From: Thiomicrorhabdus indica
Lineage (GTDB): Bacteria > Pseudomonadota > Gammaproteobacteria > Thiomicrospirales > Thiomicrospiraceae
NCBI RefSeq assembly: GCF_004293625.1
Contig: NZ_CP033040.1
Span: 1,426,001 to 1,490,000 of the forward strand
Direction: 5' to 3'
DNA length: 64,000 bases
Of the stretch, positions 5,856-64,000 are shown one piece after another. The position numbers and the translations under genes were made by a program. The stretch's first letter is position 1. Each line of letters begins with the position of its first letter. The notes under the pieces were generated by a model. The model had not been told where the DNA came from, ran no database searches, and saw only the letters and a list, made by a program, of their open reading frames with translations.

Positions 5856-5904
5856 ATTGCCTAAAATCTTGCTATAAAATTACCGGCCGGTAGAGTTTAG
5901 GAAC

Positions 5905-5929
5905 AAAAAAACCAGCACATGGCTGGTTT
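5905..5929 (-). terminator. Terminator of fabI
   Basis: Read on the minus strand, AAACCAGC and GCTGGTTT form an 8-bp stem with a 5-base loop, followed by seven T. It lies 150 bp beyond the fabI stop. A second weaker hairpin (CAGCC/GGCTG, about 5953-5968) lies between. The rest of 5930-6078 holds nothing recognisable. Confidence 0.88.
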
Positions 5930-6078
5930 CATACAAACGTTAAAATGAAATACAGCCATAGGCTGATTTTATCTTAAAGCGAGGAGAAAGTTTTCTGTTC
6001 GAGGCGTAGAGAGCGTAGTTTAGTTTGTCCAAATGAGCGAGCTACAACAAAGAACAGGAGGCTTTTAACCGCTATTAC

Positions 6079-6855
6079 TTAGTTGGAGGCTGTGATGTTG
6101 TATCCGCCATCCACATAAGTCACTTCACCAGTAATACCTGATGCTAAATCTGAGCACAAAAAGGCTGAAGTATTCCCAACTTCTTCAATCGTTACATTAC
6201 GGCGTAGAGGCGTTGATTGGGCTGCTTTATCTAGCATTGAACGGAAGTCTTTAATACCAGCGGCAGCTAATGTGCGAATTGGACCAGCAGATACAGCGTT
6301 GACACGAATGTTATCTTGACCAAGATCTGCTGCTAAATAACGAACCGTAGCTTCTAATGACGCTTTTGCAATTCCCATGACATTATAGTTTGGAACAGCA
6401 CGTTCAGCTCCTAAGTAAGAGACAGTTAAAACCGATCCATTGCTCTTTTTCAACAATTTATGGGCTGCTTTAGTGCAAGCGGTTAGAGAATAAGCAGAAA
6501 TATCGTGGGCGATTTTAAAGCCTTCACGAGTTGATGCATCAATCATGCGACCTTCGAGTTCTTCACGTGGTGCAAATGCAACAGAATGAACAAGAATATC
6601 CAAACCATCCCATTTTTGTCCAATTTTAGCCATGACTTCATCAATTTGAGCATCATCAGCAACGTCAAGTGGTAATACTAACTCTGAACCGAGTTCTTCA
6701 GCGACCTTTTCAACGCGACCTTTTAATTTTTCAGTTTGATAAGTTAAGGCAATTTCAGCGCCTTGTTCGCGCATCTGCTTTGCAATACCATACGCAATCG
6801 ATTTATTGTTAGCGACACCTATAATTAACGCTTTTTTACCACTTAGGAATCCCAT
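6079..6855 (-). CDS. fabI: Enoyl-[acyl-carrier-protein] reductase (NADH) FabI
   Basis: Catalyses the last, NADH-dependent reduction of each fatty acid elongation cycle in the cytosol. It is an SDR-fold protein with the FabI-type nucleotide loop [11 protein letters not shown] near residue 13 and catalytic Tyr157 and Lys164 in NYNVMGIAK. The ATG at 6855 (258 aa) is preceded on the minus strand by GGAG with a 7-bp gap; the upstream extension to 6927 has no such site. Position 93 is Ala (HSVAFAP), where E. coli FabI has Gly93, a residue in the triclosan pocket. It is a single-gene unit, divergent from the peptide transporter. Confidence 0.96.
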
Positions 6856-6945
6856 TGTGTTTCTCCAGTGTTTTGTCTTTAGTTGGTTCTGATGTCTTGA
6901 AATTAACTGTAGCAAGATGTTAAACATCAGGTAGAATCGGAGCTC

Positions 6946-6984
6946 ATTATAACGTTTATTTCAGTTAAAAAAGTTGGTTATAAT
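6946..6984. promoter_or_regulatory. Divergent -10 elements for fabI and the peptide transporter
   Basis: TATAAT reads on the minus strand at 6951-6946 (toward fabI) and on the plus strand at 6979-6984 (toward the transporter). Neither has a good -35 box at 16-18 bp, so the assignment rests on the -10 boxes and the divergent layout. Confidence 0.45.
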
Positions 6985-7065
6985 GGCTGCTATTACAGAT
7001 TGATGCGTCATCAGGCCCAAACAAATAGTCAAATGAATTGAAAGAAATTCGAGGAGATCAGGGAT

Positions 7066-9399
7066 TTGAAAATTTCATCATTTCATGACGATAAGAAAAT
7101 ATTAGTTTTAATTTCTTTTTTGTTTTTGTGCGCTTTGTCTATGCTCATGCAATATACAAATGTGAACGCTAGTTGGAATTCACCCAACGTAACCTCAAGC
7201 GACTCTAATAAGAAAACACTTTATAGTAGTTTCAGTGCTTCACCAAAACACCTCGATCCAGTTCGATCCTATAGTTCAAATGAGTGGGCAATTATCAGTC
7301 AAATATATGAGCCACCACTTCAATATTATTATTTTAAACGACCTTATGAACTCCAGCCATTAACATTAAAATCCATGCCTAAGCTTGTATTTTTGGATAA
7401 AAACTTTCAGCGCGTTTCAGAATCTCAAAAAAACAATGGTCAATTTGACTATACAAGGTACGACTTTGAACTGAGGGAAGATGTGTTTTACCAACCTCAT
7501 CCTGCGTTTGCTAAAAATAACAATGGTTATCTGTATCACCGTCTTGACAAGAAAATTGAAACGCTCAAAAAGCAAAATAATCCAGAGAAAGTATCCGAAC
7601 TTGAAAGTATCAAAAAACTTTCCGAGTTTGCAAAAGTTGGTAGTCGCCAGCTTGTTGCAGATGACTATATTTATGCCATAAAACGTATGGCTGTCCGTCA
7701 GAATCATTCACCAATTTTAGATACAATGAAACAGTATATTGTTGGTTTAGATGCATTTAGTCAAAGCATATCTCAGCAGTTAAAGTCTGAATTGGAAACT
7801 TCTGGTAAGTCTTTGAAAGAGCACTATTTTGATCTTGGTCAACATGGCATAAAAGGCGTTAAAAAACACTCCGACTTTTCATTTTCGATCCTAATAAAAG
7901 GGCACTATCCTCAGTTTCTCTACTGGATGAGTATGAACTTTTTTGCTCCCATTCCTTGGGAAGCCATGAAGTTTTATCAACAACCTTTTATGAATGAAAG
8001 AAATCTTACATTGGATACTAGTCCGGTTGGAACGGGGCCTTTTTACTTGGCTGAAAACAACCCGAATCAACGGATGCGTTTGGTAAAGAACCCAAATTTT
8101 CATCCGGAGGCTTTTCCTGAGGTTCCTAATGATTTTCCCGAAAACCTAAAACAAAATTACCAAGAAGACACTGGTAAAACTTTACCTTTGATAGATGAGG
8201 TGATTTATTCTTTGGAGAAAGAATCAGTTCCGCTTTGGAATAAATTCTTGCAAGGTTACTATGATGCCTCTGGTGTCAGCTCTGACAGTTTTGATCAAGC
8301 CATTTCCGTTTCGAGTAATGGAAATTTAGGTCTGACATCAGCGATGAAAGAAAAGGGCATTCAGTTTCTCAATGCGATTCAGCCGACTATTTTCTATTTT
8401 GGGTTTAATATGGCCGACCCTACTGTTGGCGGTTACTCTGAAAAGCAGCAGAAATTGCGTCAAGCGATTAGCATCGCTATCAACTTTGAAGAGTATATTT
8501 CCATATTTTTAAACGGTCGAGGCGTAGCTGCACAAAGCCCGATTCCACCGGGTATTTTTGGACATCAGTCTTTACCGGCCGGTATAAATTCCCAGGTATA
8601 TCATTTGGACGGTGAGCGAATTAAACGTAAATCCTTGCAAGAGGCTAAACAGCTTTTGGCTGATGCGGGTTATCCAAATGGTAAAAAATCTGATGGCACA
8701 CCTTTACAGCTTTTTTATGACACTGCGGCTACTGGACCTGATAGTCAGTCGATGTTGAATTGGTACCGAAAGCAATTTGCAAAGTTAGGCATTGAGTTGG
8801 TTATTCGTGCGACAGATTACAACCGGTTCCAAGATAAAGTGCGAGGTGCAAAAGTCCAGATGTTTTCTTGGGGGTGGAATGCGGATTATCCAGACCCTGA
8901 AAACTTCTTATTTTTACTTTATGGCGGTAATGCGGCCATAAATACTAATGGTTCTGGCATTAATAGCGCCAACTATGATAATCCAGAATTTAATCGTCTT
9001 TTTAAACAGATAAAAACCATGGGAAATTCACCTGAACGTTTACGTCTAATCGAACAGATGATTCAAATAGCTCAAAAGGACGCGCCTTGGGCTTGGGGAT
9101 TCTACCCAAAATCCTTAGCGCTTTATCACTCTTGGCTACGAAACCTTTGGCCAAATGCCATGGCGAACAATACGCTTAAATATCGTAATGTTGATGCCCA
9201 ATTGCGCAGTCAACAACAAGAAAAATGGAATCAACCAATTGTATGGCCGCTATGGATTTTGTTTGCGATACTACTGATTAGTATTTGGCCTCTTTATAGC
9301 GCTTATCGTAAACGCCAAAATTACCGAGTGCAAAGTCACCAAGAAGAAAGCGTCATAACCCACTCCGATGAACTCAACCGAAAAATAAAGGAGTCATAA
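7066..9399 (+). CDS. Peptide ABC transporter substrate-binding protein (SBP_bac_5 family)
   Basis: Extracytoplasmic receptor of a peptide/nickel-type ABC importer. It starts at TTG 7066, supported by GAGGAG at 7051-7056; there is no ATG nearby in frame. The N-terminus has a hydrophobic segment (about residues 10-28) that is a signal sequence or anchor. The middle contains family signatures such as LDPVRSYSSNEW and the ADYPDPENFLFLLYGG region. Unusually, a second hydrophobic helix (about 730-750, WPLWILFAILLISIW) and a basic tail close the protein, so it may be held in the inner membrane at its C-terminus. At 777 residues it is longer than DppA/OppA (about 535) or YejA (about 600). The permease gene follows after 3 bp. 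The substrate is not known; the operon layout resembles yejABEF. Confidence 0.85.
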   Translation: MKISSFHDDKKILVLISFLFLCALSMLMQYTNVNASWNSPNVTSSDSNKKTLYSSFSASPKHLDPVRSYSSNEWAIISQIYEPPLQYYYFKRPYELQPLTLKSMPKLVFLDKNFQRVSESQKNNGQFDYTRYDFELREDVFYQPHPAFAKNNNGYLYHRLDKKIETLKKQNNPEKVSELESIKKLSEFAKVGSRQLVADDYIYAIKRMAVRQNHSPILDTMKQYIVGLDAFSQSISQQLKSELETSGKSLKEHYFDLGQHGIKGVKKHSDFSFSILIKGHYPQFLYWMSMNFFAPIPWEAMKFYQQPFMNERNLTLDTSPVGTGPFYLAENNPNQRMRLVKNPNFHPEAFPEVPNDFPENLKQNYQEDTGKTLPLIDEVIYSLEKESVPLWNKFLQGYYDASGVSSDSFDQAISVSSNGNLGLTSAMKEKGIQFLNAIQPTIFYFGFNMADPTVGGYSEKQQKLRQAISIAINFEEYISIFLNGRGVAAQSPIPPGIFGHQSLPAGINSQVYHLDGERIKRKSLQEAKQLLADAGYPNGKKSDGTPLQLFYDTAATGPDSQSMLNWYRKQFAKLGIELVIRATDYNRFQDKVRGAKVQMFSWGWNADYPDPENFLFLLYGGNAAINTNGSGINSANYDNPEFNRLFKQIKTMGNSPERLRLIEQMIQIAQKDAPWAWGFYPKSLALYHSWLRNLWPNAMANNTLKYRNVDAQLRSQQQEKWNQPIVWPLWILFAILLISIWPLYSAYRKRQNYRVQSHQEESVITHSDELNRKIKES

Positions 9400-9402: not shown

Positions 9403-10380
9403 ATGTTTGCTTATATTATTCGTCGACTTCTGTTTGCAATACCGATTCTAATAGGGGTCAATTTCATAACGTTTGCGCTCTTTTTTATGGTAAATACGCC
9501 GGACGATATGGCTCGTGCTCAATTGGGAGCAAAGCAGACATCGCCTGAAATGATTCAAGCTTGGAAAGAAGAAAGAGGGTACGATAAACCTTTATTTATC
9601 AATGACCAAGCACATGGTCTTTCTATTGTCTCTGAGACGTTATTTGTTCAAGAATCCTTAAAACTGTTCTCATTCGATTTTGGACAATCCGATGCCGGCC
9701 GGCAGATTTCTAGTGATATTCAAGAACGAATGATTCCCAGCTTGGCGATTGCTTTACCGACTTTCTTGATCGGTTTAATCACAACCATTGCGATTGCACT
9801 GTTAATTGTCCTGTTTCGAGGCACGGCTTTGGATACTGTGACCATGATGATTGCCGTCGCTATTATGTCCATATCTGGACTGTTTTACATCATTGCCGGT
9901 CAAGTATTATTTAGTAAAATGCTGCATTGGGTTCCGATTTCTGGCTATAGTGATGGGATAGATGCATGGCGTTTTTTGATTTTACCGGTTCTGATAGGTG
10001 TGTTTGCTGGGCTGGGTAGTGGTGTCCGATGGTATCGCAGTATATTTCTTGAAGAAATGAACAAAGATTACGTAAGAACAGCAAGAGCTAAAGGTGTAAG
10101 TGAAATAAAGGTTTTATTTACGCATGTGTTACGTAATGGATTTCTACCGATTTTGACGGGGGTGGTCGTTGTTATTCCGACATTGTTTATGGGGAGCTTG
10201 ATTATGGAATCCTTTTTTGGCATTCCAGGACTGGGCAGTTACACCATTGATGCCATTAATGCTCAGGATTTTTCTATTGTGAAGGCTATGGTCTTTTTAG
10301 GTTCTGTGCTTTATATCATCGGCTTGATTCTCACCGACATTTCTTACACCTTGTTTGATCCTAGAGTAAAACTATCATGA
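9403..10380 (+). CDS. Peptide ABC transporter permease, DppB/YejB type
   Basis: Inner-membrane permease with six predicted helices starting MFAYIIRRLLFAIPIL, the standard N-terminus of this family. The EAA coupling motif toward the ATPase is in the segment around EEMNKDYVRTARAKG. The 325-residue length is normal. It lies 3 bp after the substrate-binding protein gene, and its TGA stop overlaps the next ATG (10377), which indicates translational coupling. Confidence 0.92.
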   Translation: MFAYIIRRLLFAIPILIGVNFITFALFFMVNTPDDMARAQLGAKQTSPEMIQAWKEERGYDKPLFINDQAHGLSIVSETLFVQESLKLFSFDFGQSDAGRQISSDIQERMIPSLAIALPTFLIGLITTIAIALLIVLFRGTALDTVTMMIAVAIMSISGLFYIIAGQVLFSKMLHWVPISGYSDGIDAWRFLILPVLIGVFAGLGSGVRWYRSIFLEEMNKDYVRTARAKGVSEIKVLFTHVLRNGFLPILTGVVVVIPTLFMGSLIMESFFGIPGLGSYTIDAINAQDFSIVKAMVFLGSVLYIIGLILTDISYTLFDPRVKLS

Positions 10381-11894: not shown

Positions 11895-13619
11895 ATGCAG
11901 GAAGTTCTCCCAGAACCGGTATTAAAAGTTCAGAATCTATCTGTTCAAGTCGCCAATGATCTGCTGATTAATCGCATCAGTTTCTCCATTCAAAAAGGGG
12001 AAATCTTTGCATTGGTCGGCGAGTCTGGAAGCGGAAAATCCTTAACCTCTTTAGCGATTATGCGCTTACTACCTGAAGCGCTAGATATCGTCGATGGCGA
12101 TATTTTTCTTCAAAAAGACTCTCTGTTTTCAATGACCGAGTCACAAATGCAAAAAGTCCGTGGCAGACGAATTGCCATGATTTTCCAAGAACCGATGACC
12201 TCGTTAAACCCTGTTATGAAAGTTGGCATTCAAGTGCAAGAAGTCATTAGCCGACATCTGAAGCTTTCAGGTAGAGCAGCTCGCCAAAAGGTGGTGGAAC
12301 TTTTCGAGGAAGTCGGAATTCCGGATGCTGCCGAACGTTTTCATTGGTACCCTCATCAATTGTCAGGCGGGCAGAAACAGCGCGTTATGATCGCTATGGC
12401 ACTGGCGTGTGAACCGGATGTTTTAATCGCCGATGAGCCGACTACCGCTCTGGATGTAACGATTCAGGCCCAAGTCTTAAAATTGTTAAGAAAAATTCGT
12501 GATGAGCGTCAGTTGTCCATTTTGTTTATTACACACGATATGGGCGTGGTCCATGAAATGGCCGATACAATTGCGGTCATGAAGAGCGGAAAGATTATTG
12601 AGCAAGCGTCTAAGGAAATGTTTTTTGCAAATCCACAGCAAGACTATACGCAACAATTACTGTCAGATGCGATTCCAAAACCTATTTCAATCGCACCCAC
12701 GACTTCCAATCTGGAAAATAATGAAGAAGATTCCATCACTTTACACCGGCCGGTAACTTCTGAAAGTTCGGTTGTCACGCTATCCGATGACTTATTGCGT
12801 TTGGATGATATTAAAATTCATTTTCCCATTAAGAAAGGGGTTTTTCAGCGCACGGTCGGTCACGTCAAGGCGGTGGATGGCGTGAGTTTAAAAATTCCTA
12901 AAGGAAAAACCCTTGCTTTAGTCGGGGAGTCTGGAAGTGGAAAAAGTACACTTGGTATGGGAATTTTAAAACTGGTCAAAATGACCTCCGGAAAAGTCTT
13001 TTATCAAGCTCATAACAACTCTGAACAGGAGTTAACGCACCTAAGTGAAAGACAGATGCGGCCGCTACGCAGAAAAATCCAAGTTATCTTTCAAGACCCA
13101 TTTTCCGCCTTAAATCCTAGAATGACGATTGGTGAAATCATCCGTGAGGGAATGGTCAGTTTAAAGGTCGGTTCTCAAGACAAAAACGAGCAACGCACTC
13201 GTGTTGAAGAGTTGCTTGTTCAAGTTGGGTTAGAAAAATCGCATATCCATCGTTATCCACATGAGTTTTCCGGTGGTCAACGTCAGCGGATCGGAATTGC
13301 GCGAGCTTTAGCAGTAGAGCCGGAGTTAATTATTTGTGATGAGCCGACCAGCGCCTTAGATGTATCGGTAAGAGCGCAAGTGCTTGGATTGTTGAAAGAG
13401 TTACAGGAAAAATATCACCTGTCCTATCTGTTTATTACGCACGATCTTTCCATTATTCCAAGCATCGCACATGAAGTGGCGGTTATGCAAAAAGGCAAGA
13501 TTGTCGAGCAGGGTCCAGTTGAAGAGGTCATGCGTCACCCAGAGCACGCATACACTCAATCTTTGCTCGCCTCTGCACCAGAATTAGTTCGAAATGCGTT
13601 GAATATATCTGTCGCCTAA
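11895..13619 (+). CDS. Peptide ABC transporter ATPase with two fused ABC domains (YejF-like)
   Basis: Energises the importer encoded upstream. Domain one has Walker A GESGSGKS at 42-49, signature LSGGQKQR and Walker [14 protein letters not shown]. Domain two has Walker A at 344-351, signature FSGGQRQR and Walker [14 protein letters not shown]. Each half ends with an oligopeptide-type C-terminal extension (YTQQLL / YTQSLL). Fusion of the DppD- and DppF-like subunits in one chain is the arrangement of YejF. ATG 11895 follows AGGAA with a 10-bp gap. It closes the four-gene operon. Confidence 0.93.
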
Positions 13620-13699: not shown

Positions 13700-14407
13700 T
13701 TATGGCGTGGAGATTATCTCAATGAAATCGGTTGAAGGCTTGTCCATGATTCCCATTTTTGTTAAAAGTTCCACCGCAATTTCTGAGGTTTGAGGTAGTT
13801 GCATTGGATTTTCACCCGGAAATAATCGTCCGCGAGCTTCGGTAGCAAAGGCTGGTGTGCGTGCGATGTAGCAGTGTAGGCACTTCTCACAATGTTCATT
13901 TGCAAGACTTTTTATCAGTTGTTCCAGTCCTGCTTTGGCAACACCGTAGGCTCCGTAAAAAGCGGGTTTATCAAAACAGTCTTTATCACTTATGGCGACT
14001 AAATCCCCCTTGGCTTTTAAGAGCAATGGCAAGGTTTGCTGGATCAGTTGAAAATTGGCATTCAGATTGGTGTGCATGACCTCATACCATTGCTTCGTAT
14101 CAAAGTGCTCAATCGGTGTGAAGGCTGGCAAAATTGCGGCATTCAGAAACACCCCATCCAATTTGCCAAACTCTGTTTCAATGACTTGCCCAAACTCTTC
14201 CCAATTTTGTAAATCCGCTCCTAATAAGTCTAGAGGATACAAAGCTAACCGGCCGGTAAATTCTTGTTGTTGAAGCTGGTCAGACAAGGCATTTAAACGC
14301 TGTAAGTCTTTATCCAGCAGAATCATCTGATGGCCAAGTGCGTAGAGTTGTTCAGTAAGTGTGCGACCTAAACCTTGAGCGGCACCGGTAATAAGATAGG
14401 TTTTCAT
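13700..14407 (-). CDS. yciK: Short-chain dehydrogenase, YciK-like
   Basis: Cytosolic SDR oxidoreductase of unknown substrate. Seen: NAD(P)-binding TGAAQGLGR at about 7-15, LNAAI in place of NNAG, and the active-site YxxxK in YGAYGVAKAG. The segment DLQNWEEFGQVIETEFGKLDGV and the C-terminal third resemble E. coli YciK. The order ubiG - HAD phosphatase - yciK next to gyrA is the one known from Pseudomonas, which supports the name. Length is 235 residues. It is the last gene of a three-gene minus-strand operon, 119 bp after the phosphatase gene. Confidence 0.75.
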   Translation of the reverse strand: MKTYLITGAAQGLGRTLTEQLYALGHQMILLDKDLQRLNALSDQLQQQEFTGRLALYPLDLLGADLQNWEEFGQVIETEFGKLDGVFLNAAILPAFTPIEHFDTKQWYEVMHTNLNANFQLIQQTLPLLLKAKGDLVAISDKDCFDKPAFYGAYGVAKAGLEQLIKSLANEHCEKCLHCYIARTPAFATEARGRLFPGENPMQLPQTSEIAVELLTKMGIMDKPSTDFIEIISTP

Positions 14408-15191: not shown

Positions 15192-15908
15192 TTAAGCCTC
15201 TGGTTTACGAAATGCCATAATGTAGTTAATCGATAAATCTTTATTTAAGGCGTAACGTTGTAATAATGGATTGAATTCAACCCCAACACTATCAATGAGT
15301 TCCAGTCCCGCTTGACGTGCCATCGCCGCCATCTCAGATGGTTTAATAAATTTATCCGGGTCATGAGTGCCTTTGGGAACCAAATTTAGAAGGTTCTCAG
15401 CGGCATAAACCGCTAGCAATTGAGATTTTAAATTTCGATTAAGTGTTGAGAAAAAAACTAAACCGCCTGGTTTGACAGCGTGGGCTGCGGCAGAAATAAT
15501 CGCTTGCGGATTTGGAACATGTTCCAGCATTTCCATGCAGGTCACTATATCGTGTGTTTCTGGGTTTAGAGTTGCATACTCTTCAGCGGCGATAAGCTGA
15601 TAATCGACCTTTATTTGTGCGTCTAGTGCATGCAATTTGGCGACTTGCAACACCTGTTCGGCCAAGTCGATTCCTGTTACATTTGCCTGTAGTTGCGCCA
15701 TGGATTCTGACAAGATTCCACCGCCACAACCAATGTCCAAAATTGACCGGCCGGTTAAACATTGGTGTTGTTGCATATATTGCAAACGTAATGGATTGAT
15801 TTTGTGTAAAGCACCAAATTCGCCATCTTCGTCCCACCATTTATGACTCAGGCGGTTGAAGTTATCTAACTCTTTGGTATCGGCATTATTGTGTTGTTGT
15901 GTACTCAT
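15192..15908 (-). CDS. ubiG: Ubiquinone biosynthesis O-methyltransferase UbiG
   Basis: SAM-dependent methyltransferase that carries out both O-methylations in ubiquinone synthesis. Motif I is ILDIGCGGGILSE near residue 57, followed by the acidic GIDLAEQ strand and the EMLEHVPNP motif typical of UbiG. Its 238 residues match the E. coli protein (240). It is the first gene of the ubiG-phosphatase-yciK operon and diverges from gyrA across 252 bp. That gap carries the ACCGGCCGGT site at 15990 but no second gene. Confidence 0.96.
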   Translation of the reverse strand: MSTQQHNNADTKELDNFNRLSHKWWDEDGEFGALHKINPLRLQYMQQHQCLTGRSILDIGCGGGILSESMAQLQANVTGIDLAEQVLQVAKLHALDAQIKVDYQLIAAEEYATLNPETHDIVTCMEMLEHVPNPQAIISAAAHAVKPGGLVFFSTLNRNLKSQLLAVYAAENLLNLVPKGTHDPDKFIKPSEMAAMARQAGLELIDSVGVEFNPLLQRYALNKDLSINYIMAFRKPEA

Positions 15909-16112
15909 TGATTAGGAGCCATAAGATTCATTTAAAAACGTGTCTGCGATTATACCCAAAACTGTTAAAAATTCCTTGCGTGAATCTCTACCGGCCGGTA
16001 GAAAACTAAAATAAAATTATCGTCTAGGTGGCGAGAAAAAAATAAAAGTGGCTAGAAGGGCTTTATTTTGGCTTTTAAGGCTATTTTTAGTCAATCGAAA
16101 GCATTTTGCGCA

Positions 16113-19984: not shown

Positions 19985-20059
19985 AATAGTTTACCGGCCG
20001 GTATATTTGCGCCTTAAAAGACAAAACTAAGCAATTAACTAAGTATTAATTAAAAGATT

Positions 20060-25368: not shown

Positions 25369-25478
25369 ATTACCGGCCGGTTGGGAATGGCTGGTTACTT
25401 GAAACTGACCCGACTGATTTACCAATACTCCCATTGGCAGTAAAACAGACGGATAGGAAAATTTTGGTATATATATCC

Positions 25479-27159: not shown

Positions 27160-27205
27160 AAACCGGCTGGTAACTTTACCGGCCGGTCAAATTTGGTCTT
27201 TTATT
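27160..27205 (+). terminator. rpsA terminator built from two ACCGGCCGGT-like palindromes
   Basis: ACCGGCTGGT at 27162-27171 and ACCGGCCGGT at 27178-27187 pair with each other (one G-T) around an AACTTT loop. Flanking CCAAA and TTTGG can extend the stem, and a T-rich tract follows. Each copy could also fold on itself. This is a direct case of the dispersed palindrome forming a terminator stem. Confidence 0.75.
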
Positions 27206-31140: not shown

Positions 31141-31160
31141 ACCGGCCGGCTAAGTATAAT
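31141..31160 (+). promoter_or_regulatory. dnaB promoter region containing an ACCGGCCGGC palindrome
   Basis: TATAAT at 31155-31160 lies 51 bp before dnaB. The palindrome variant at 31141-31150 lies 4 bp upstream of that box, in the place of the spacer, and no good -35 box is seen. A protein bound to the palindrome would overlap RNA polymerase. Confidence 0.45.
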
Positions 31161-38566: not shown

Positions 38567-38590
38567 ACTCTTTACCGGCCGGTAAAGAGT
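38567..38590. terminator. Perfect 24-bp palindrome between convergent genes
   Basis: ACTCTTTACCGG and its exact complement meet at 38578/38579 and contain ACCGGCCGGT at the centre. It is placed between the SPOR gene and the convergent histidine kinase gene, with T/A-rich sequence on both sides (TTCTTTATATT after it), so it is a plausible bidirectional terminator or a protein-binding palindrome. Confidence 0.7.
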
Positions 38591-40240: not shown

Positions 40241-40274
40241 ACCGGCCGGTAAAAATTAATTTCTACCGGCCGGT
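40241..40274. repeat. Two ACCGGCCGGT palindromes 24 bp apart in an intercistronic gap
   Basis: Exact copies at 40241-40250 and 40265-40274, separated by 14 bp, between the response regulator and kinase genes. The copies can pair with each other or each with itself, in DNA or in the RR-HK mRNA. Confidence 0.9.
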
Positions 40275-44643: not shown

Positions 44644-44792
44644 TACTTGCTCCACATACTTGATTAAACTTAGAGTGCACAAGATACCAAAATAATAGGA
44701 TTAGTTAAGTTACTCTGTATCAAAATTAACAAAAAATAAATCTTTACCGGCCGGTAGCTTTTAAAACAGCGTAAAGATCTAGCTATAACCTA

Positions 44793-51680: not shown

Positions 51681-53867
51681 ATGTCAAGTTCATCACAAAA
51701 TCAGTCTCAAAGTATTTCTGAAAGCGTAAAACAAGTTTTCTCTAAAACATTTCCAGAACGCTGCCTTACATCTGAAGACAGTTATCACCTACAAGCCTGT
51801 GTAAATGCTTGTGAAATGGCTCTTGAAGCACAATCACTTCCACAAAAAGGTATTGTTAGAAGTGTTGATGTCGCTGAAATACTTGCTCAATTAAAACTGG
51901 ATGACGACACCATGATTGCAGCGCTCGTTAGTGATGCGAATCTTGATCCTGTCTACCCTCTTGAACTCATTCGAGAACGATTCGGAAAAACCGTTGCAAA
52001 TTTAGTGGAAGGAATTCGTAAACTCAATCAGTTCCGTGAATTCCAGATTGCTGAAAATGATCAAATTCAACATGAACGCTTACGCCAAATGTTGCTGGCA
52101 ATGACATCTGATATCCGAATCATGGTATTGAAACTTGGATACCGTGTTGCGCGTCTCCGAAATCTAAAATACGAAGATGAGCTTATTCAACGCGAAGTTG
52201 CCTATGAAACCCAACTGATCTTTGCTCCGCTTGCCAACCGTTTAGGGATCGCTCAGTTAAAGTGGGAGCTTGAGGATCTTTCATTCCGTTTTCTCAACCC
52301 TATTGAATACAAATCTATTGCAAAAGGCTTGCAATCAAAGCGTGCCGAGCGTGAAACCTATATTGAAAAAATGCTAGCAGATTTGGATACATTGCTTGCA
52401 ACCGAAAACATTCATGCAAAGATTACCGGCCGGCCAAAACATATTTATAGTATTTGGAAAAAAATGACTAAGAAAAATGTGCCGATTGAAGAGTTGTATG
52501 ATCTTCGTGCAGTGCGCATTTATGTTGATTCCATCCGTTTGTGTTATGAAGTTTTGGGGCTAATTCACAGTAAATGGAATTATATCAAGCAAGAATTTGA
52601 TGATTATATCGCCACGCCTAAAGACAATGGCTATCAATCCATTCACACAGTAATTATTGGGCCGGAAGGACATACGGTTGAAATTCAAATTCGTACCTTT
52701 GACATGCATCACAATGCTGAATATGGTGTTGCAGCACATTGGCGCTACAAAGAAGGTGAAAACGGTGTTGATAAAAACCTAGAACGTTCGATTGCCAACG
52801 TTCGGCAAATGCTGGAAAACGCGGACAATCCGGATATTTTTCAAGAGATTAGTACTGAGCTACAAAGTCAGCACATTTATGTTATGACGCCAAATAATGA
52901 AATCATTACTTTACAGCAAGGCTCTACACCTCTTGACTTCGCTTATAACATCCATACTGAACTCGGACATCGTTGCCGTGGCGCTAAAATCAATGGCAGA
53001 ATACGTCCCCTCAACACTCCCTTAGAAACAGGTGACAAAGTTGAAGTATTGACCATCAACCAAGGTCAACCTAGTCGTAATTGGTTAAATCCTAACCTTG
53101 GTTATTTAAAAAGCAATAGTGCCCGTCAAAAGGTCCGTACTTGGTTCAACAAACAAAATCGCTATGAAAACATTCAGGCTGGTGAATCTTTATTTCATAA
53201 AGAAATCAAACGATTGCATGCCGAGAATCTAAAGATTGATGACATTGTTGAACGTTTTCACCATACAGAACAAGAAAGCTTTTTTGAAGATCTGGGTAAA
53301 GGACGTATTAACGAGCGGCAACTTGCACATGCAATTCAAGCAGTACTTCATCCTAAAAAGAAAACAGTTCATGTTCATCAGCCAGCAGTTATTGCGACAG
53401 ATGAAAATGCCCATGCCTATGTTATTGGTTCAACTAATATCCATACCTCGTTAGCCCCCTGTTGTGATCCAGCAGTTGGAGACTCCATTGTTGGTTATGT
53501 CACGCGTGGTCGCGGTGTAACAGTTCATAAATCAGATTGTAATAACATCCTAAATCTTAATGATGAGGAACGTCGTCGTTTAATTGATGTTACTTGGGAT
53601 CGACAAATTGCTGAAAATCGTTGCTATGAAGCAGAGTTACATGTATTGGCGTTTGACCGTAAAGGCTTATTGAGAGATGTAATGGCAACATTATCTGAAA
53701 TGAATATCAACTTGATTGAATCTGAAACTCAAACAGATAAAGAAGAAAGAACTGTGACAATGAAACTAACCTTAGAAGTTGAAACAGCCCTTTCGTTAGG
53801 ACATCTTTTGGATAAAATTGAAATGATTCAAAATATTGAATCAGTATCGATTAAAACGCTTCCATAA
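51681..53867 (+). CDS. relA: (p)ppGpp synthetase RelA
   Basis: Stringent-response enzyme making (p)ppGpp on starved ribosomes. The N-terminal hydrolase-like domain (about 40-190) lacks the HD motif of SpoT (ALVSDANLDPVYP stands in its place), so it should not hydrolyse. The synthetase domain (about 230-360) has GRPKHIYSIWKKM, DLRAVRIYV, DNGYQSIHT and EIQIRT. It is followed by TGS (about 395-460, DFAYNIHTELGHRC), a zinc-finger-like region with APCCDPAVGD, and a C-terminal ACT/RRM domain. Length is 728 residues (E. coli 744). Single-gene unit on the plus strand, facing the tRNA cluster. Confidence 0.94.
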   Translation: MSSSSQNQSQSISESVKQVFSKTFPERCLTSEDSYHLQACVNACEMALEAQSLPQKGIVRSVDVAEILAQLKLDDDTMIAALVSDANLDPVYPLELIRERFGKTVANLVEGIRKLNQFREFQIAENDQIQHERLRQMLLAMTSDIRIMVLKLGYRVARLRNLKYEDELIQREVAYETQLIFAPLANRLGIAQLKWELEDLSFRFLNPIEYKSIAKGLQSKRAERETYIEKMLADLDTLLATENIHAKITGRPKHIYSIWKKMTKKNVPIEELYDLRAVRIYVDSIRLCYEVLGLIHSKWNYIKQEFDDYIATPKDNGYQSIHTVIIGPEGHTVEIQIRTFDMHHNAEYGVAAHWRYKEGENGVDKNLERSIANVRQMLENADNPDIFQEISTELQSQHIYVMTPNNEIITLQQGSTPLDFAYNIHTELGHRCRGAKINGRIRPLNTPLETGDKVEVLTINQGQPSRNWLNPNLGYLKSNSARQKVRTWFNKQNRYENIQAGESLFHKEIKRLHAENLKIDDIVERFHHTEQESFFEDLGKGRINERQLAHAIQAVLHPKKKTVHVHQPAVIATDENAHAYVIGSTNIHTSLAPCCDPAVGDSIVGYVTRGRGVTVHKSDCNNILNLNDEERRRLIDVTWDRQIAENRCYEAELHVLAFDRKGLLRDVMATLSEMNINLIESETQTDKEERTVTMKLTLEVETALSLGHLLDKIEMIQNIESVSIKTLP

Positions 53868-53950
53868 CAACAGCTAAATTTTCCTACCGGCCGGTTAAGT
53901 AGAAATAATCGGCTAGTCGTCCTCCATCTTTTTTTGGATCACTGAAAATA

Positions 53951-54818: not shown

Positions 54819-54837
54819 AAATTGTAATATCAGTAAA

Positions 54838-55085: not shown

Positions 55086-56498
55086 TCAAGCGTTCTTCGC
55101 TCTCTCCTCAACAAAAGCAATCGCCATATCTAATCGAGTTAAACAACGCTCTTTTCCAATCAATTGAGCGGTTGCATCAATCGCAGGAGATTGACCACCT
55201 CCGGTGATGGCAACACGTAATGGCATACCAACTTTACCCATCCCTACTTCAAGCTCATCTGCAGTGCCTTGGATACAAGCATGTATAGGTTCAGCAGTCC
55301 AATCGTCCAATGCGGTTAATTTCGTTCTGAGTAATTGTAAAGCCTCCAAAGCAGCTGGTCGTAAATGCTTTTTCGCTGCGCCGGCTTCAAACTCTTCAAA
55401 ATCGTTATAGAAATAAACTGCCCCATCAGCCATTTCAATTAAGGTTTTGGCTCGCTCACGTAAAAGATTAGCAACCTCCGAGAGTTTTGGACCTTGATCA
55501 AGGTCACATCCTTTGTCAGCCATAAATGGCGCAAGATGGGTTGCTAAATGATCAGCAGTTGCCACTTTGATATGTTGTTCGTTAATCCAAGTTAGCTTGA
55601 CACTGTCGAATGTTGAAGGTGAACCATTAACATGCTCTAAATCGAACTTCTGAACCATTTCATCAATCGTAAAGACTTCTTGATCACCATGAGACCAACC
55701 CAAACGGACTAAATAGTTTAGTAAAGCCTCAGGCAGGAATCCTTGTTCTTTATATTGGAGGACACTGACAGCACCATGACGCTTCGACAAACGAGAGCCA
55801 TCTTCACCCAATACCATTGGAATGTGCGCAAATTTAGGAAGCTCAGCGCCTAGCGCTTTGTAAAGGTTAATTTGTCGAGGCGTGTTATTTAAATGATCAT
55901 CACCACGAATCACATGTGTGACACCCATATCCCAATCGTCAACCACCACAGTTAAATTGTAAGTTGGCGTACCATCTGAACGAGCAATAATCAAATCGTC
56001 TAACTCTCGGTTGTTGACGACAACCTTACCTTTCACCAAATCTTCGATTTCAACATCACCATCAATCGGATTTTTAAAGCGGATTACAGGATCGACACCG
56101 GCCGGTGGTTCTCCAGAAAAATCACGGTAACGCCCATCATAACGAGGTTTTTCACCGTTAGCTTTTTGCTTTTCTCGCATTTCATCCAATTCTTCAGGCG
56201 TTGCGTAGCAATAATAAGCCAACCCTTTATCAAACAACTGCTGAATGACCTCTTTGTATCGGTCAAAACGTTTAGTTTGGTAGAACGGACCTTCATTGTA
56301 GTCAAGACCTAACCAAGTCATGCCTTCCAAAATGGCATTGACTGACTCAACACTCGAACGTTCAAGATCTGTATCCTCAATACGAAGAATAAAATCACCG
56401 CCATGGCGTTTTGCATAAAGCCATGAATATAAAGCAGTTCTAACACCACCGATATGAAGGTAACCCGTCGGGCTTGGGGCAAATCGAGTACGAATCAC
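55086..56498 (-). CDS. gltX: Glutamyl-tRNA synthetase
   Basis: Charges tRNA-Glu, three copies of which lie directly downstream on the same strand. Class I signatures are [15 protein letters not shown] (HIGH-type) and GSRLSKRHG (KMSKS-type). The zinc-binding cysteines of the E. coli enzyme are absent from the [10 protein letters not shown] region, which is common in other groups. I chose GTG 56498 (470 aa) because GGAG lies 6 bp before it and the protein then starts [10 protein letters not shown], matching the family. The gltX/tRNA-Ala-Glu neighbourhood is known from other gammaproteobacteria. Confidence 0.96.
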
Positions 56499-57809: not shown

Positions 57810-59717
57810 ATGTCTAATACCAATCACACCAGCCAATCCCCCGACACTCCAAACTCTTTTGACTTGCACTATCAAATAGAATGCTTTGACGCACATGCAC
57901 ATCTGTTTCGCGTCAAACTGGACATCCAACCAACTACTGGAGAAAAACAGACACTTTCTCTGCCGGCTTGGATTCCAGGCAGTTATTTGATTCGAGATTT
58001 TGCAAAGCATATTGTAGAAATAAACGCACGGGATTCGTCTGGCAACTTGATTGAGCTTATTCCAAATGGTTTATCTGCATGGGATTTTCAGTCCCAATTA
58101 CCTATTAGTGTTGAATATATTGTCTATGCATGGGATTTATCAGTCCGTAAAGCGCACTTTGACCAAACTCATGCATTTTTCAACGGCACCTCGGTATTCC
58201 TAGCCTTGGAAGAACAGAGAGACACTCCAGTAAAAGTAACGATGATTACCAATGACTTTACCCATGATGCTCAATGGAAAGTGGCAACCGGCATGCCAGC
58301 TCTAAAGGTCAACGAGCAAGGGTTTGGAGACTACTGGGCATCCAATTATCGCGACTTAGTGGAATATCCATTTGAGCTGGGTAATTATCATGAAATACAA
58401 TTTACAGCCTGCGGTATCCCTCACAAAATGGTATTTACCGGCCGGTTAAATGCCAATACAGATTTCGAAAGAATTCGCAGCGATGTTCAAAAAATATGTG
58501 AAACGGAAATCGAATTTTTTGGATTGGATGCACCTCAAAACCCTCCAATGTCAGAGTATTTATTTCAAGTGATGCTAACCACATCGGATTATGGTGGCTT
58601 AGAACATAGAAATTCTACAGCTTTAATCTGCGCCCGAGATGATTTGGCCTATATTGGTATGGAAAGTAACACCGATGGCTATATTCAATTTTTAGAGTTA
58701 TGTTCCCATGAATATTTCCACACATGGAATGTGAAAAGAATTCAACCCAAAGCTTATCAAGATTCCAAACTTGACCGGCCGGTAATCTCCGAACAACTTT
58801 GGTGGTTTGAAGGTGTTACCTCTTATTATGACGCGCTATTTCTATTGAAAAGCCAGATAATTAGTGAGGTGGACTACTTGAATTTGCTTGGAAAACAGTT
58901 AACCCGGATTTATATGATGCCTGGGCGCCACAAGCAATCGGTAGCCGAGTCGAGTCATTACACTTGGAGTAAGTTCTATCAACAGGATGAAGACGCCCCT
59001 AACAGTATTATCAGTTATTACACCAAAGGCAGTCTCATTGCACTAGCACTTGACTTAACACTTCGTCAACAAACAGAAAACCGCTGTAGTTTAGACACTG
59101 TCGTGCGATATCTCTGGAATGAATTTGGTTCTAAAAACAATGGAGTAGGAATCGGATTAGAAGAAAAACAAATCGAAGAGATTTGTTCTAGTCTTTGTAT
59201 TGAAAATGGCGGCCAATGCTTAAAAAGCTTCTTTGATCAAGTTCTGTATGGTAAAGACGATTTTGATTTGAAATCTTTATTCAAACCCTTTGGCTATGAT
59301 TTCATTTTACGTCCAGCGAAAAACCCGAGTGATACAGGTGGAAATATTGAGGCAGGTGTATTGCAAAAACTGGTTGAGTCCACACCCAGCTCCATTGGAG
59401 CAAGACTCCAAGACTTACCGGCCGGTGGAATTGAGATCACTCATGTCTGGAATCAACAAGCTGCCTATTTATCTGGCCTGACAAAAGGCGATCAAATTAT
59501 TGCCATTAACGGAATTAAAGTTCGTAATAAATCGTCATTTGAGCAACTTCTTGCAAGGCATCAGGAAGGACAAACCTGGGAATGCCATTATTTTCGTCGC
59601 GATGAGTTATACCAAACACAATTGACTCCACGCAAAGCACCACTTGATAGAGTAACCATTCAGCAAACAGAGTCTGATTCACGCCCTTCAAATAATTTGA
59701 AGTGGTTAAAGGAGTAA
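57810..59717 (+). CDS. M61 family glycyl-aminopeptidase-like protease with PDZ domain
   Basis: Zinc metallopeptidase of 635 residues. A beta-rich N-terminal domain (about 20-190) precedes a thermolysin-like domain with HEYFH at 300-304 followed by TWNVKRIQP, the M61 signature, and a C-terminal PDZ domain (about 535-620, SGLTKGDQIIAINGIKV). There is no signal peptide, so it is probably cytosolic. ATG 57810 lacks a clear Shine-Dalgarno. slyX follows after 6 bp. Three ACCGGCCGGT sites lie within this gene (58437, 58774, 59417), the densest cluster in the window. Confidence 0.9.
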   Translation: MSNTNHTSQSPDTPNSFDLHYQIECFDAHAHLFRVKLDIQPTTGEKQTLSLPAWIPGSYLIRDFAKHIVEINARDSSGNLIELIPNGLSAWDFQSQLPISVEYIVYAWDLSVRKAHFDQTHAFFNGTSVFLALEEQRDTPVKVTMITNDFTHDAQWKVATGMPALKVNEQGFGDYWASNYRDLVEYPFELGNYHEIQFTACGIPHKMVFTGRLNANTDFERIRSDVQKICETEIEFFGLDAPQNPPMSEYLFQVMLTTSDYGGLEHRNSTALICARDDLAYIGMESNTDGYIQFLELCSHEYFHTWNVKRIQPKAYQDSKLDRPVISEQLWWFEGVTSYYDALFLLKSQIISEVDYLNLLGKQLTRIYMMPGRHKQSVAESSHYTWSKFYQQDEDAPNSIISYYTKGSLIALALDLTLRQQTENRCSLDTVVRYLWNEFGSKNNGVGIGLEEKQIEEICSSLCIENGGQCLKSFFDQVLYGKDDFDLKSLFKPFGYDFILRPAKNPSDTGGNIEAGVLQKLVESTPSSIGARLQDLPAGGIEITHVWNQQAAYLSGLTKGDQIIAINGIKVRNKSSFEQLLARHQEGQTWECHYFRRDELYQTQLTPRKAPLDRVTIQQTESDSRPSNNLKWLKE

Positions 59718-60858: not shown

Positions 60859-61800
60859 TCATTTATTTCGATTGCTTCTGTCCGCACTACCAATGCGTGT
60901 CTTTCTTTGTGGTTTGTTACGCCCGAACTTTCCTGCAAGTGTTCGATCAGATTTACTGGCATTACGTTTACTTAAACCCGTTTTATCAAAGCGTTTAGTT
61001 GGACGTTTATCTGGCTGGGATTCTTCCGGCAAATCAACGGAACGCAGTAATTGATTGACCTGCTTCCAAGTAAGCTCTTCAGTTTTGCCTGTACGTAAAT
61101 TACGCGGCATACTCAATTCACCATAACGAATACGATGCAAGCGACTAACCTGAACCCCTTGCGATTCCCAAATCCGACGAACTTCACGTTTGCGCCCTTC
61201 TTTAATAATCACCTTAAACCAACGGTTCATCACGCCATCTTCAGTGGGTAATGGAATAATTCGATTAAACTTTGCCGGCCCATCTTCAAGTTGAACCCCT
61301 TTCTTCATAGCTTGCAGCATTTCGTCGGTCACTTCCCCAAATACACGCACCGTGTATTCTCGCTCCATTTCATAAGATGGATGCATCATACGGTTCGCCA
61401 AATCACCATTATTGGTTAAGACCAACAAACCACTGGTATTTAAATCCAAACGTCCAATACTGATCCAACGCCCTTGAAAAATTTTGGGTAACTGGGAATA
61501 AATGGTATCTCGGCCTTGTTCATCTTTGCGACTACACACAAGCCCTTCCGGTTTGTTGTACAAAATAACGCGGGTCGGTTGTTTCTGAACTCGACTGTCT
61601 TTTAATAATTGATCTTTATATTTAATTTTGTCCGCTTCAGTGACACGAACACCTAACTGAGCGATCTTTCCATTAACCTTAATCTGTCCATGTGCAATCA
61701 GTTCTTCACAGGCACGTCTTGAACCTAGACCTGCTCTTGATAGCACCTTTTGAAGTTTTTCACCGGCCGGTGAGGAATTTGAAGAGGAGTTCGATTGCAT
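60859..61800 (-). CDS. rluB: 23S rRNA pseudouridine synthase RluB
   Basis: RsuA-family enzyme that makes pseudouridine in helix 89 of 23S rRNA. The S4 RNA-binding domain (about 14-75, KLQKVLSRAGLGSRRACEE) is followed by the catalytic domain with SIGRLDLNTSGLL (catalytic Asp) and EGRKREVRRIWE. The basic, Lys/Arg-rich tail (from about 255) is typical of RluB. Length is 313 residues. A Pro-Ala-Gly encoded by ACCGGCCGGT lies at its very N-terminus (61762). Confidence 0.93.
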   Translation of the reverse strand: MQSNSSSNSSPAGEKLQKVLSRAGLGSRRACEELIAHGQIKVNGKIAQLGVRVTEADKIKYKDQLLKDSRVQKQPTRVILYNKPEGLVCSRKDEQGRDTIYSQLPKIFQGRWISIGRLDLNTSGLLVLTNNGDLANRMMHPSYEMEREYTVRVFGEVTDEMLQAMKKGVQLEDGPAKFNRIIPLPTEDGVMNRWFKVIIKEGRKREVRRIWESQGVQVSRLHRIRYGELSMPRNLRTGKTEELTWKQVNQLLRSVDLPEESQPDKRPTKRFDKTGLSKRNASKSDRTLAGKFGRNKPQRKTRIGSADRSNRNK

Positions 61801-61850
61801 AATGGAGCACTCTAATTAGTTAAATGAAAATAAAAGAAAAATCGGAAATT

Positions 61851-62507
61851 CTAAATATGAAAAATACTGTAAATCCAGTGCTGGAAAAAACTAAATGGAC
61901 CTAAAATAAAAGGGGTTAAAAAACCTAAGAACAACAAAGCAATTAGTACTATGAATCCATAGTTTTCGTAGCGAAGATAATAATACGCCCATTTTTTTGG
62001 CATTAACCAGCTTGCAACTCGACTTCCATCTAAAGGAGGAATAGGAAGCAGGTTCAGGACCATTAAAACTAAATTAATCGTTACACCAGCGACACCAGAA
62101 TAAATAAGAAACTGTCCAATATCCGGCTGTGAAGTCTGTAAAACCAATCCTGTTTTCAGAATGGCTGCCCAAAACAACGCCATTAAAAAATTACTGGCCG
62201 GACCTGCAACTGCAACAATCGCCATACCCTGACGTGGTTTTTTAAAGTTATTTGGCGTGATAGGAACGGCTTTTGCCCAACCGAAAACAAAACCACCCAA
62301 TGCCAAAAGTACTCCCGGAACAATAATTGTTCCAAGCGGATCAATATGTTTAATGGGATTTAATGTAATTCGGCCAAGCATTTTTGCAGTAGGGTCGCCT
62401 AATTTATTTGCAACCCACCCATGCGCAACCTCGTGCAAAGTAATCGCAAAAATAACCGGCAAAGCCCAAACCGCTAATTTCTGAATTAGGGTAAGCTCCT
62501 CCATCAT
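61851..62507 (-). CDS. Site-2 protease family (M50) membrane metalloprotease
   Basis: Intramembrane zinc protease of 218 residues with HEVAH at 25-29, the LGRITLNPIKHIDP loop and the third ligand in LLPIPPLDGSRV. About six helices; no PDZ domain, so it is the compact M50 type rather than RseP. The substrate is unknown. Two in-frame ATGs (62507, 62504) overlap the yciO stop, so it is translationally coupled. Confidence 0.9.
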   Translation of the reverse strand: MMEELTLIQKLAVWALPVIFAITLHEVAHGWVANKLGDPTAKMLGRITLNPIKHIDPLGTIIVPGVLLALGGFVFGWAKAVPITPNNFKKPRQGMAIVAVAGPASNFLMALFWAAILKTGLVLQTSQPDIGQFLIYSGVAGVTINLVLMVLNLLPIPPLDGSRVASWLMPKKWAYYYLRYENYGFIVLIALLFLGFLTPFILGPFSFFQHWIYSIFHI

Positions 62508-63127
62508 TGCTCAAAAACTCCTTGACCTTGACGAATTAAAACAGGTTCATCATCGGAAAAATCAATAATGGTGGTTGGCTCAAAACCACAGTAACCACCA
62601 TCTAAAATTGCATCCAATGCATGACCAATTGATTCCTGAACAGCCCAAGCATCCGTCAACGGAAAATCTTCTCCCGGTAAAATGCACGACGCAGTCAATA
62701 AAGGCTGATCAATTAAACTTAGTAATTCATTCGCAACTTTGTTAGGGGATACACGTAATCCGATATATTTCTTTTTTGGTGCTTGTAAACGTTTCGGAAC
62801 TTCTCTACTCGCTGGCAGCAAAAACGTATATGCGCCTGGAAGATGATTCTTTAAAAAACGAAACTGAACATTACCAACTTTAGCATACTCGGAAAGTTTG
62901 CTTAAACTGTCACACATAATAGCCAGTGGATGCTGATCCGGTAATTGACGTATCGCCCGAATTCTTTCCGCCCCTTTTTTATTGTCAAATAAACATCCTA
63001 AAGCGTAGCCTGATTCTGTCGGATAGGCGATAACACCTTGGTTATTTAAAATTTCCACCACCTGATCCAATAATCGTTTTTGAGGATTTTCAGGGTGGAC
63101 ACCAATATATTGACAATTGTGGTTCAA
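62504..63127 (-). CDS. yciO: YciO, Sua5/YrdC family protein
   Basis: 207 residues beginning with IGVHPENPQKRLLDQ and containing YPTESGYALGC and PGAYTFLLPA, which follow E. coli YciO closely. It has the YrdC nucleotide/RNA-binding fold. YciO is a paralogue of TsaC (threonylcarbamoyl-AMP synthase) and its activity in t6A synthesis is weak or debated. The neighbouring rnm gene matches the E. coli yciO-rnm neighbourhood. Confidence 0.9.
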   Translation of the reverse strand: MNHNCQYIGVHPENPQKRLLDQVVEILNNQGVIAYPTESGYALGCLFDNKKGAERIRAIRQLPDQHPLAIMCDSLSKLSEYAKVGNVQFRFLKNHLPGAYTFLLPASREVPKRLQAPKKKYIGLRVSPNKVANELLSLIDQPLLTASCILPGEDFPLTDAWAVQESIGHALDAILDGGYCGFEPTTIIDFSDDEPVLIRQGQGVFEQ

Positions 63128-63223
63128 AGTGACCTCGATTTAGCAAAAAATTAAAGGAATATTATAAACGCTATTACATTCAAAAGAGCTGTCAAAAAGA
63201 TAAATCCTGAGATTTTATTGCGT

Positions 63224-63484
63224 TTAGTTTTCGGGGGGAATCAATGAATGTTTCATATAGTCAACGGCCTGTTGGCCGGCATCCTGCGTTTTTTCAAGAA
63301 TTTTTGCATCTGGCATTAAAAATGCCGCAATTAACAGTATTGCCGCGACAATGAATAGTGCTTTCACAGCATTTAGAATAATTTTCAAAATAAAGAAAAC
63401 GATAATAAACGCACTAATAACCATTAAAAGCGCAAAAACATCACCGGCAATTAAATTACTGTAAATTTGGTTTATAAATTCCAA
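63224..63484 (-). CDS. Small two-helix membrane protein
   Basis: 86 residues with one long or two short hydrophobic stretches (about 15-36 and 42-57) and a hydrophilic end. It starts at TTG 63484, supported by GGAG 7 bp upstream; that GGAG lies directly after the rnm stop, so it is coupled to rnm. No family recognised. It is followed after 96 bp by yciO. Confidence 0.7.
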   Translation of the reverse strand: MEFINQIYSNLIAGDVFALLMVISAFIIVFFILKIILNAVKALFIVAAILLIAAFLMPDAKILEKTQDAGQQAVDYMKHSLIPPEN

Positions 63485-63496
63485 ATGAAAACTCCA

Positions 63497-64000
63497 TTAG
63501 CATGAGTTCGAATGGCTAATCATTTCTGAAATGGACGGATGGAACAGCTCCCATACCGGCCGGCATTCCTTTGGCAAGGGAGCTAACCAACCAAGTCCAC
63601 GCCAACGGTGTTCAGGCCGGTGAAAATCTGAACCAAGAGAAGCATACAACCCATGACGATGCGCTCTTTGCGCCATCCCAATGGAGTCAGCATTTGACCT
63701 AGACTGATTAACCACTTCAATTGCCTGGCCGCCGGCTCCCTTGAAGTCTTCAATGAGCAGGTTTAACTTGTTGGAACTAAGCTTGTAATTTTTTGGATGA
63801 GCAATTACAGCAATGCCTCCGGCTGCGGTAATCCATCTAACAACCTCTTCAAGTTCTGGCCATTCAGGTTTGACATAACCAATTCTGCCACGCTTTAAAA
63901 AGCGGTCAAATGCTTGTTGCGCCTTGTTCACTAAACCTAACTCAATCATTGCTTGTGCAAAATGCCCACGACCAATAATACCTTCACCCACTAATTCTAA
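63497..64000 (-). CDS. rnm: Rnm/YciV PHP-domain nuclease, 5' end outside the window
   Basis: The C-terminal 167 residues of a PHP phosphoesterase. The frame is open to the window edge (reading LELV before GEGIIGRGHFA). Metal-binding motifs VIAHPKNY and GSDFHRP are visible, and GRGHFAQAMIE and FDRFLKRGRIGYVKPEWP match E. coli YciV (Rnm, RNase AM, a 5'-3' exonuclease maturing rRNA 5' ends). The N-terminal HSHT/SDG part lies beyond 64000. Confidence 0.88.
   Translation of the reverse strand, partial: LELVGEGIIGRGHFAQAMIELGLVNKAQQAFDRFLKRGRIGYVKPEWPELEEVVRWITAAGGIAVIAHPKNYKLSSNKLNLLIEDFKGAGGQAIEVVNQSRSNADSIGMAQRAHRHGLYASLGSDFHRPEHRWRGLGWLAPLPKECRPVWELFHPSISEMISHSNSC

Follow-up and report, generated by a model that had tools for sequence, protein, structure and literature searches.

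A palindromic decamer iterated across the Thiomicrorhabdus indica chromosome and its relation to a family of candidate DNA-uptake-sequence-like words

In the literature drawn on here, sequence-specific DNA uptake has been described for two bacterial families, the Pasteurellaceae and the Neisseriaceae, with the question of how such words arise and change left open. For the uptake signal sequence (USS) of H. influenzae, the relevant sections of PMC1626085 and PMC1939737 report about 65% of copies in open reading frames (ORFs) with an excess outside them, AT flanks, a strong consensus and an origin by substitution. For the DNA uptake sequence (DUS), the corresponding part of PMC3630211 gives eight dialects within the Neisseriaceae and names ComP as the receptor. 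A third comparison is offered by the highly iterated palindromes (HIPs) of cyanobacteria, HIP1 and its alternates, which excerpts of Elhai's work describe as replaced by other words in some lineages and as generally accompanied by cognate methyltransferases. Here we describe the palindromic decamer ACCGGCCGGT in a 64-kb stretch of the Thiomicrorhabdus indica chromosome (the window; bases 1,426,001-1,490,000 of a single-contig genome of 2,829,883 bases, labelled G000 in comparisons) together with its counterparts in related species. We consider it fairly probable, from the comparisons below, that ACCGGCCGGT belongs, as one dialect among several, to a set of tags spread across the family and resembling DNA uptake sequences.

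Abundance, anatomy and origin of the decamer

The window holds 24 exact copies of ACCGGCCGGT and eight more with one mismatch, and 100 dinucleotide shuffles of the window gave a mean of 0.41 sites with at most one mismatch (largest 3). The core CCGGCCGG occurs 30 times, as 24 exact and six near decamer copies, in agreement with the numbers and places in an initial annotation of this DNA, whose estimate of about 43% GC is corrected to 40.1%. Across the chromosome (2.83 Mb) we counted 1025 copies, about one per 2.8 kb, against one for the reversed-pattern control. A 464-kb sample made up of the window and 20 evenly spaced 20-kb stretches contained 177 copies where Markov models of orders 1, 2 and 3 expect 0.12, 0.33 and 0.66, so that the excess survives the Markov comparison proposed in the annotation. 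Orders 4, 5 and 6 expect 3, 43 and 134 copies, the last two being high because ACCGGCCGGT itself supplies its over-represented 6- and 7-mers. We conclude that the over-representation is real, strong and genome-wide; ACCGGCCGGT is at once a highly iterated palindrome, as HIPs are, and a single short word in gross excess with hundreds to thousands of copies, as USS and DUS are.

Counts per 20 kb (mean 7.65, variance 3.8) lie within chance, the Poisson 95% range being 3.5-13.2. The motif-free beginning of the window, reported previously as 5.8 kb, does exist (5.9 kb) but is unremarkable at a chance probability of 12%. Among the first 100 genome places listed, the two longest gaps cover a cluster for polysaccharide synthesis/export and another for MauG/MbnP; clusters of these types are often recent arrivals, and the two cases were picked by length.

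Copies of the decamer sit in the setting A-A-W-N-T-T-T-ACCGGCCGGT-A-A-A-N-W-T-T, with T at -1 to -3 and A at -5 to -7 mirrored on the other side and G scarce at -2 (6-7%). These tracts lie at fixed distances on both sides, about one helical turn from the dyad, as the AT-rich flanks of USS do, and because coding copies carry them too they are not merely AT-rich spacer DNA. The outer A or T was kept in 92% around 208 CCGGCCGG cores, the core being fixed by the definition of the count. Perfect decamers outnumbered one-off variants by 177 to 43 in the 464-kb sample. The eight inner places accounted for 15 of the variants (7.3 expected under an order-2 model) and the two outer places for 28 (1.3 expected).

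ORFs (64% of copies, 114 of 177) hold most of the sample, and 79 of the 114 are in the frame reading X-Pro-Ala-Gly; ORFs here are the longest non-overlapping frames from a script, not curated annotation. The density is nevertheless three-fold higher outside ORFs (0.89 per kb) than inside (0.29), and between genes it runs from 2.16 per kb for convergent pairs (18 copies) through 1.07 for tandem (32) to 0.63 for divergent ones (7).

The origin of coding copies was examined where a relative was at least 50% identical over 12 residues on each side, as was the case at 14 of the 114 coding sites. None of the 14 had a gap in the motif codons, and at three the relative had the same peptide. At the gyrA site, the seven relative rows shown, out of 15, read Leu-Pro-Glu-Gly or Leu-Pro-Asp-Gly where T. 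indica has Leu-Pro-Ala-Gly. Judged by these alignments, coding copies are edited sequence and not inserts, so that ACCGGCCGGT, like USS and DUS, arises by substitution. A longer shared repeat, a transposon, and a repetitive extragenic palindromic (REP) element or miniature inverted-repeat transposable element were considered and rejected, as flanks differ beyond the A/T tracts and no gaps occurred at the 14 sites. This agrees with the annotation's view of an iterated palindrome outside transposons and REP elements; its remark that flanking sequence is not shared holds at the scale of repeats, but not for the symmetric A/T tracts common to the copies.

Related words across the family

We compared 62 genomes of the family. 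ACCGGCCGGT, dialect D2, has 1025 copies in T. indica versus 0-15 in the other 61, including the other 31 Thiomicrorhabdus species. Word counts in samples of relatives brought up a second palindrome, ACCAGGCCTGGT, whose core CAGGCCTG (D1) is present at 236-1173 copies per genome in 32 of the 62 and at 12 in T. indica; its carriers are 15 species of the same genus, seven of the 11 g3 genomes, all nine g6 genomes and the single g7 genome. Loci sampled from T. arctica and T. chilensis also contain CAGGCCTG. A degenerate scan exposed CAGGCCGG (D3), which G023 carries 1111 times and G036 633 times; no other genome exceeds 410 copies, the figure for G019, where the reversed control gives 171. Its context, AAAAACTSAACAGGCCGGGTA, is asymmetric (19 copies profiled), and the word is equally frequent on the two strands (533/578). 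The fourth word, TCTRCCAGGYTGGG (D4), also asymmetric in its longer form AAAATCTGCCAGGYTGGG (14 copies profiled), belongs to three g3 genomes, where the 14-base form has 296, 304 and 352 copies; three others have it once each and the remaining 56 lack it. In all four words an A-tract lies some 11 bp from the dyad, or from the position corresponding to it, and each word keeps CAGG or CCGG. On these shared features the four words are one family of dialects, and since related species use asymmetric ones, palindromy would not be essential to it.

Twenty-four of the 62 genomes, 14 within the genus and ten outside it, showed no dialect that we recognised, only one of the ten (G017) having been sampled (40 kb). 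For the 14 species of the genus this negative comes from pooled, partly overlapping samples of 277, 74, 100 and 76 kb; words at z 9-12 in the 74-kb pool (G037-G045) are presumed to be sequence common to orthologous regions. Among the relatives sampled, G026 (contigs L029-L033) has a second over-represented word family with GTCATTGCGA, found 24 times on both strands of 100 kb and distinct from the palindrome. Among 365 gammaproteobacterial genomes outside the family, none that has at least 100 copies of CMGGCCKG reached ten times its reversed control, as read by eye from a scan that is blind to D4 and to dialects with other cores; the highest was 270 to 29, versus 1251 to 38 in T. indica. Among the open-access papers listed by literature searches, those matching the motif letters being judged by title and abstract, we found no description of these words and none linking an uptake sequence with Thiomicrospira. 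The main text of three surveys contains neither 'Thiomicrospira' nor 'AGGCCT', and PMC6501319 has 'palindrom' only within CRISPR.

The distribution of dialects was set against a GyrA tree of 38 rows. D3 forms a well-supported pair inside a D1 clade, D1 itself is scattered and needs at least five changes, and T. indica is a lone branch of unresolved place. The dialects are clustered on the tree, though with the repeated changes of D1, and USS, which has two dialects that follow the tree, offers a parallel.

Sites of D1 are maintained between species. In pairwise alignments averaging 74% identity, with species pairs that are not independent, 380 of 814 D1 octamers (47%) were exactly conserved versus 120 of 1325 (9%) for 63 control palindromic octamers of equal GC. 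Compared with the nearest D1 relatives, D3 occupied D1 positions in 22 of 52 and 22 of 41 cases, a rate similar to the 48 of 84 among those relatives themselves; this comes from 39 kb of D3 DNA. Were it to apply to the full 1111 copies, hundreds of sites would have undergone the same change, confined to one side. D2 and D1 have no position in common (0/67 and 0/75) in counts that leave out alignments breaking at the site, and the nearest relatives of D2 are only 78% identical in gyrA DNA. These patterns suggest two modes of word change, conversion in place (D1 to D3) and complete re-seeding (D2). As a separate observation, the word AACAGGCCTG of G047 resembles a step between D1 (ACCAGGCCTGG) and D3 (AACAGGCCGG).

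A proposed role in DNA uptake and alternative explanations

In exactness, ORF share, AT flanks and dialects, ACCGGCCGGT agrees with the uptake sequences of the two families, Pasteurellaceae and Neisseriaceae. Like USS, of the Hin and Apl types, the words combine a short GC-containing core with AT tracts about one helical turn away and very many copies, more of them perfect than one-off, with an origin by substitution, and the ORF share is near that of H. influenzae. The core, however, is unrelated to that of USS, the density is lower and a role in uptake is here a proposal; the USS word lacks symmetry and has its flanks on a single side, whereas two of the four dialects here are perfect palindromes with flanks on both. 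Like DUS, they comprise several dialects in one family, kept within species, around a small constant core (here CAGG or CCGG beside the A-tract), whereas DUS, in the section of PMC1626085 that treats it, has no flanking AT motifs, and no counterpart of ComP is known here. We therefore place ACCGGCCGGT as a word that may work like a DNA uptake sequence and not as a proven member, since its palindromy departs from the known ones and we infer uptake.

Under this explanation, a DNA receptor of the natural-transformation machinery would prefer fragments carrying the tag. Conspecific fragments so favoured would recombine after uptake, so that alleles matching the receptor would spread and mismatched ones be replaced, and biased conversion of this kind could accumulate some 1000 perfect copies at positions that protein and promoter constraints leave free. 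A shift in receptor specificity might then change tags in place (CAGGCCTG to CAGGCCGG) or re-seed them at new places, as in T. indica. Of the roles suggested by the annotation, the closest is a recombination signal, taken in the sense of uptake that feeds recombination. T. indica has a ComEC gene with a 931-aa open frame, and ComEC was found in 56 of the 62 family genomes. It was unmatched in G050 and in five drafts of 79-99% completeness. G050 is itself 99% complete and has no recognised dialect. A role for ComEC as the dialect switch was rejected: it is unmatched in G050 but present in most other genomes without a recognised dialect. Besides ComEC, the search for competence machinery covered prepilin genes (PF07963), which occurred in all 17 genomes examined, and pilins remain the place where we would seek a receptor because the one predicted for Pasteurellaceae (ComN), in the passage of PMC12616744 that deals with it, is a minor pilin.

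Several observations weigh against uptake. ComEC is weak evidence, being found in most genomes without a recognised dialect and in ten of 14 control genomes, E. coli included, and it was unmatched in two dialect-bearing drafts, G035 (D1, 82% complete) and G036 (D3, 92%). No set of pilins tracking dialect was seen by eye in 20 regions of the 17 genomes. D1 and D2 are palindromes, D3 and D4 alone having the asymmetry of USS and DUS, and known uptake sequences are not palindromes in the part of PMC1939737 that describes them. The density of ACCGGCCGGT is below the approximately one per kb that a section of PMC1626085 gives for USS and DUS, whose spacing is said to be more regular than random; the coefficient of variation of ACCGGCCGGT gaps, 0.85, is low but within the simulated 95% range of 0.82-1.07. 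Among the other words, D4 is skewed between strands (428 to 524, P 0.002), D1 has a weaker ratio of perfect to one-off octamers (151 to 138), and one control octamer, GCCATGGC, is also well conserved (42/120).

Instead, each copy could mark the place where a homodimer of some nucleoid or chromosome-organising protein binds and, by way of the A-tracts beside it, bends the DNA, the specificity of the protein having drifted between lineages. The symmetric A-tracts around the D1 and D2 palindromes, the genome-wide spread and the scarcity of copies between divergent genes fit such a protein. We consider it unlikely, however, as D3 and D4 are asymmetric, no motif was recognised in the thin samples of 14 other species of the genus, and the relaxed consensus that PMC1626085, in the part concerned, treats as usual for regulator sites is not seen. 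A change of specificity would moreover unbind about 1000 sites at once, yet D2 keeps no D1 position (0/75).

A second alternative holds that mismatch repair guided by methylation produced ACCGGCCGGT as a HIP-like sequence, the model that Elhai's account, as excerpted, proposes for HIP1 and alternate HIPs. The words are highly iterated, GC-rich and palindromic, they spread by substitution, their deviations fall mostly at the outer letters and they have lineage-specific alternates. D3 and D4 are asymmetric, however, and the A-tract flanks lie outside the model. The CCGGCCGG core consists of C and G with no A, which leaves C as the sole base open to modification, and GGCC is absent from D4. Two DNA methyltransferase families were searched: the C5-cytosine family PF00145 had no match in T. 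indica or in the nine g6 genomes, all D1 carriers, and PF01555 had none in T. indica, with five g6 genomes above cut-off and a sixth weakly matched. Among the 62 genomes each family turned up in 24, and neither is present in T. indica or in 13 of the 32 D1 carriers. Because both are unmatched in T. indica, the model is disfavoured and we regard it as quite improbable, a judgement that covers these two families and no others. The HIP1 analogy drawn in the annotation probably fits the pattern and not the cause: copy number and substitution origin hold, and the annotation's methylation or repair mark is weakened by the same result.

Some other bias of copying or conversion, such as an endonuclease or repair drive that spreads a word by gene conversion in the absence of natural transformation, would accommodate the way D3 has taken the place of D1 at shared sites, the exactness of the copies and the presence of ComEC in species with no recognised dialect. 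It seems to us distinctly improbable, given that no candidate enzyme is known from a search limited to the two methyltransferase families and that biased uptake already accounts for the same facts. Transcription terminators or RNA hairpins are the most doubtful proposal, very hard to credit: copies are denser between convergent genes, the flanks could lengthen a stem, and pooled D1 flanks at -1, -2, -3 and -5 pair across the dyad above independent draws (P 0.005 or less; two more weakly), which species mixing can cause, but 64% of copies lie within ORFs, D2 has excess pairing at one of ten flank positions (P 0.02), and D3 and D4 are not palindromes.

Copies in the window and meaning for the family

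Positions and settings of the copies are collected in the table. The copy in the S1-like frame probably lies upstream of the true start, there being no sensible alignment at the site. The peptidase M61 ORF holds three exact copies of ACCGGCCGGT.

Table. Exact and near copies of ACCGGCCGGT in the 64-kb window (window coordinates).
Copy	Position	Setting
exact	5882..5891	between tRNA-Asp and fabI-like gene
exact	8574..8583	inside ORF 7066-9399
near, GCCGGCCGGC	9694..9703	core intact
exact	12745..12754	ABC-transporter ATPase ORF 11895-13619
exact	14248..14257	short-chain dehydrogenase ORF 13700-14407
exact	15746..15755	methyltransferase-domain ORF 15192-15908; by Pfam small-molecule type, no DNA methyltransferase family
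exact	15990..15999	intergenic
exact	17468..17477	gyrA; encodes Leu-Pro-Ala-Gly
near, ACCGGCCGGC	18332..18341	
exact	19993..20002	intergenic
exact	22612..22621	prephenate dehydrogenase ORF
exact	25372..25381	within called ORF 25320-27140 (ribosomal protein S1-like)
exact	27178..27187	intergenic
exact	28598..28607	orotidine monophosphate (OMP) decarboxylase ORF 28053-28754; Arg-Pro-Ala-Gly, found in several relatives too
near, ACCGGCCGGC	31141..31150	
near, CCCGGCCGGT	34743..34752	
exact	38574..38583	between convergent ORFs
exact	40241..40250	first member of a pair, 24 bp apart
exact	40265..40274	second member of the pair with 40241..40250
exact	41449..41458	cupin-domain ORF 41170-42093
exact	44746..44755	intergenic
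exact	47742..47751	dihydrouridine synthase ORF 47352-48536
near, ACCGGCCGGC	52425..52434	
exact	53886..53895	3' of relA-like gene
exact	56097..56106	glutamyl/glutaminyl-tRNA synthetase-like ORF 55086-56510
exact	58437..58446	peptidase M61 ORF 57768-59717
exact	58774..58783	peptidase M61 ORF 57768-59717
exact	59417..59426	peptidase M61 ORF 57768-59717
exact	61762..61771	pseudouridine synthase ORF 60859-61800
near, ACCGGCCGGC	63555..63564	

Three observations concern other features of the window. Three tandem tRNA-Val/tRNA-Asp pairs with equal Rfam scores follow the lon region (5172-5814), and six tRNA genes, including three for Glu and two for Gly, lie on the minus strand at 53994-54913. A protein 47% identical to the prephenate dehydrogenase of the window occurs on contig L131, titled as a Pirellulaceae metagenome-assembled genome, which is possibly a binning error.

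Within a single family, the 62 genomes offer four related words, lineages lacking any recognised one, a same-site switch from D1 to D3 and the wholesale relocation of D2; comparison can thereby test how a self-recognition word originates, drifts and is lost. A broader proposal, on which we are evenly divided, is that these words would constitute a third, independently evolved family of self-recognition uptake sequences, the first with palindromic words, in sulfur-oxidising bacteria, with dialects that change by editing in concert and by whole-genome re-seeding, each switch cutting a species off from the DNA of its relatives. If the driver is not uptake, a new mechanism would be required, one able to maintain or alter some 1000 dispersed sites together.

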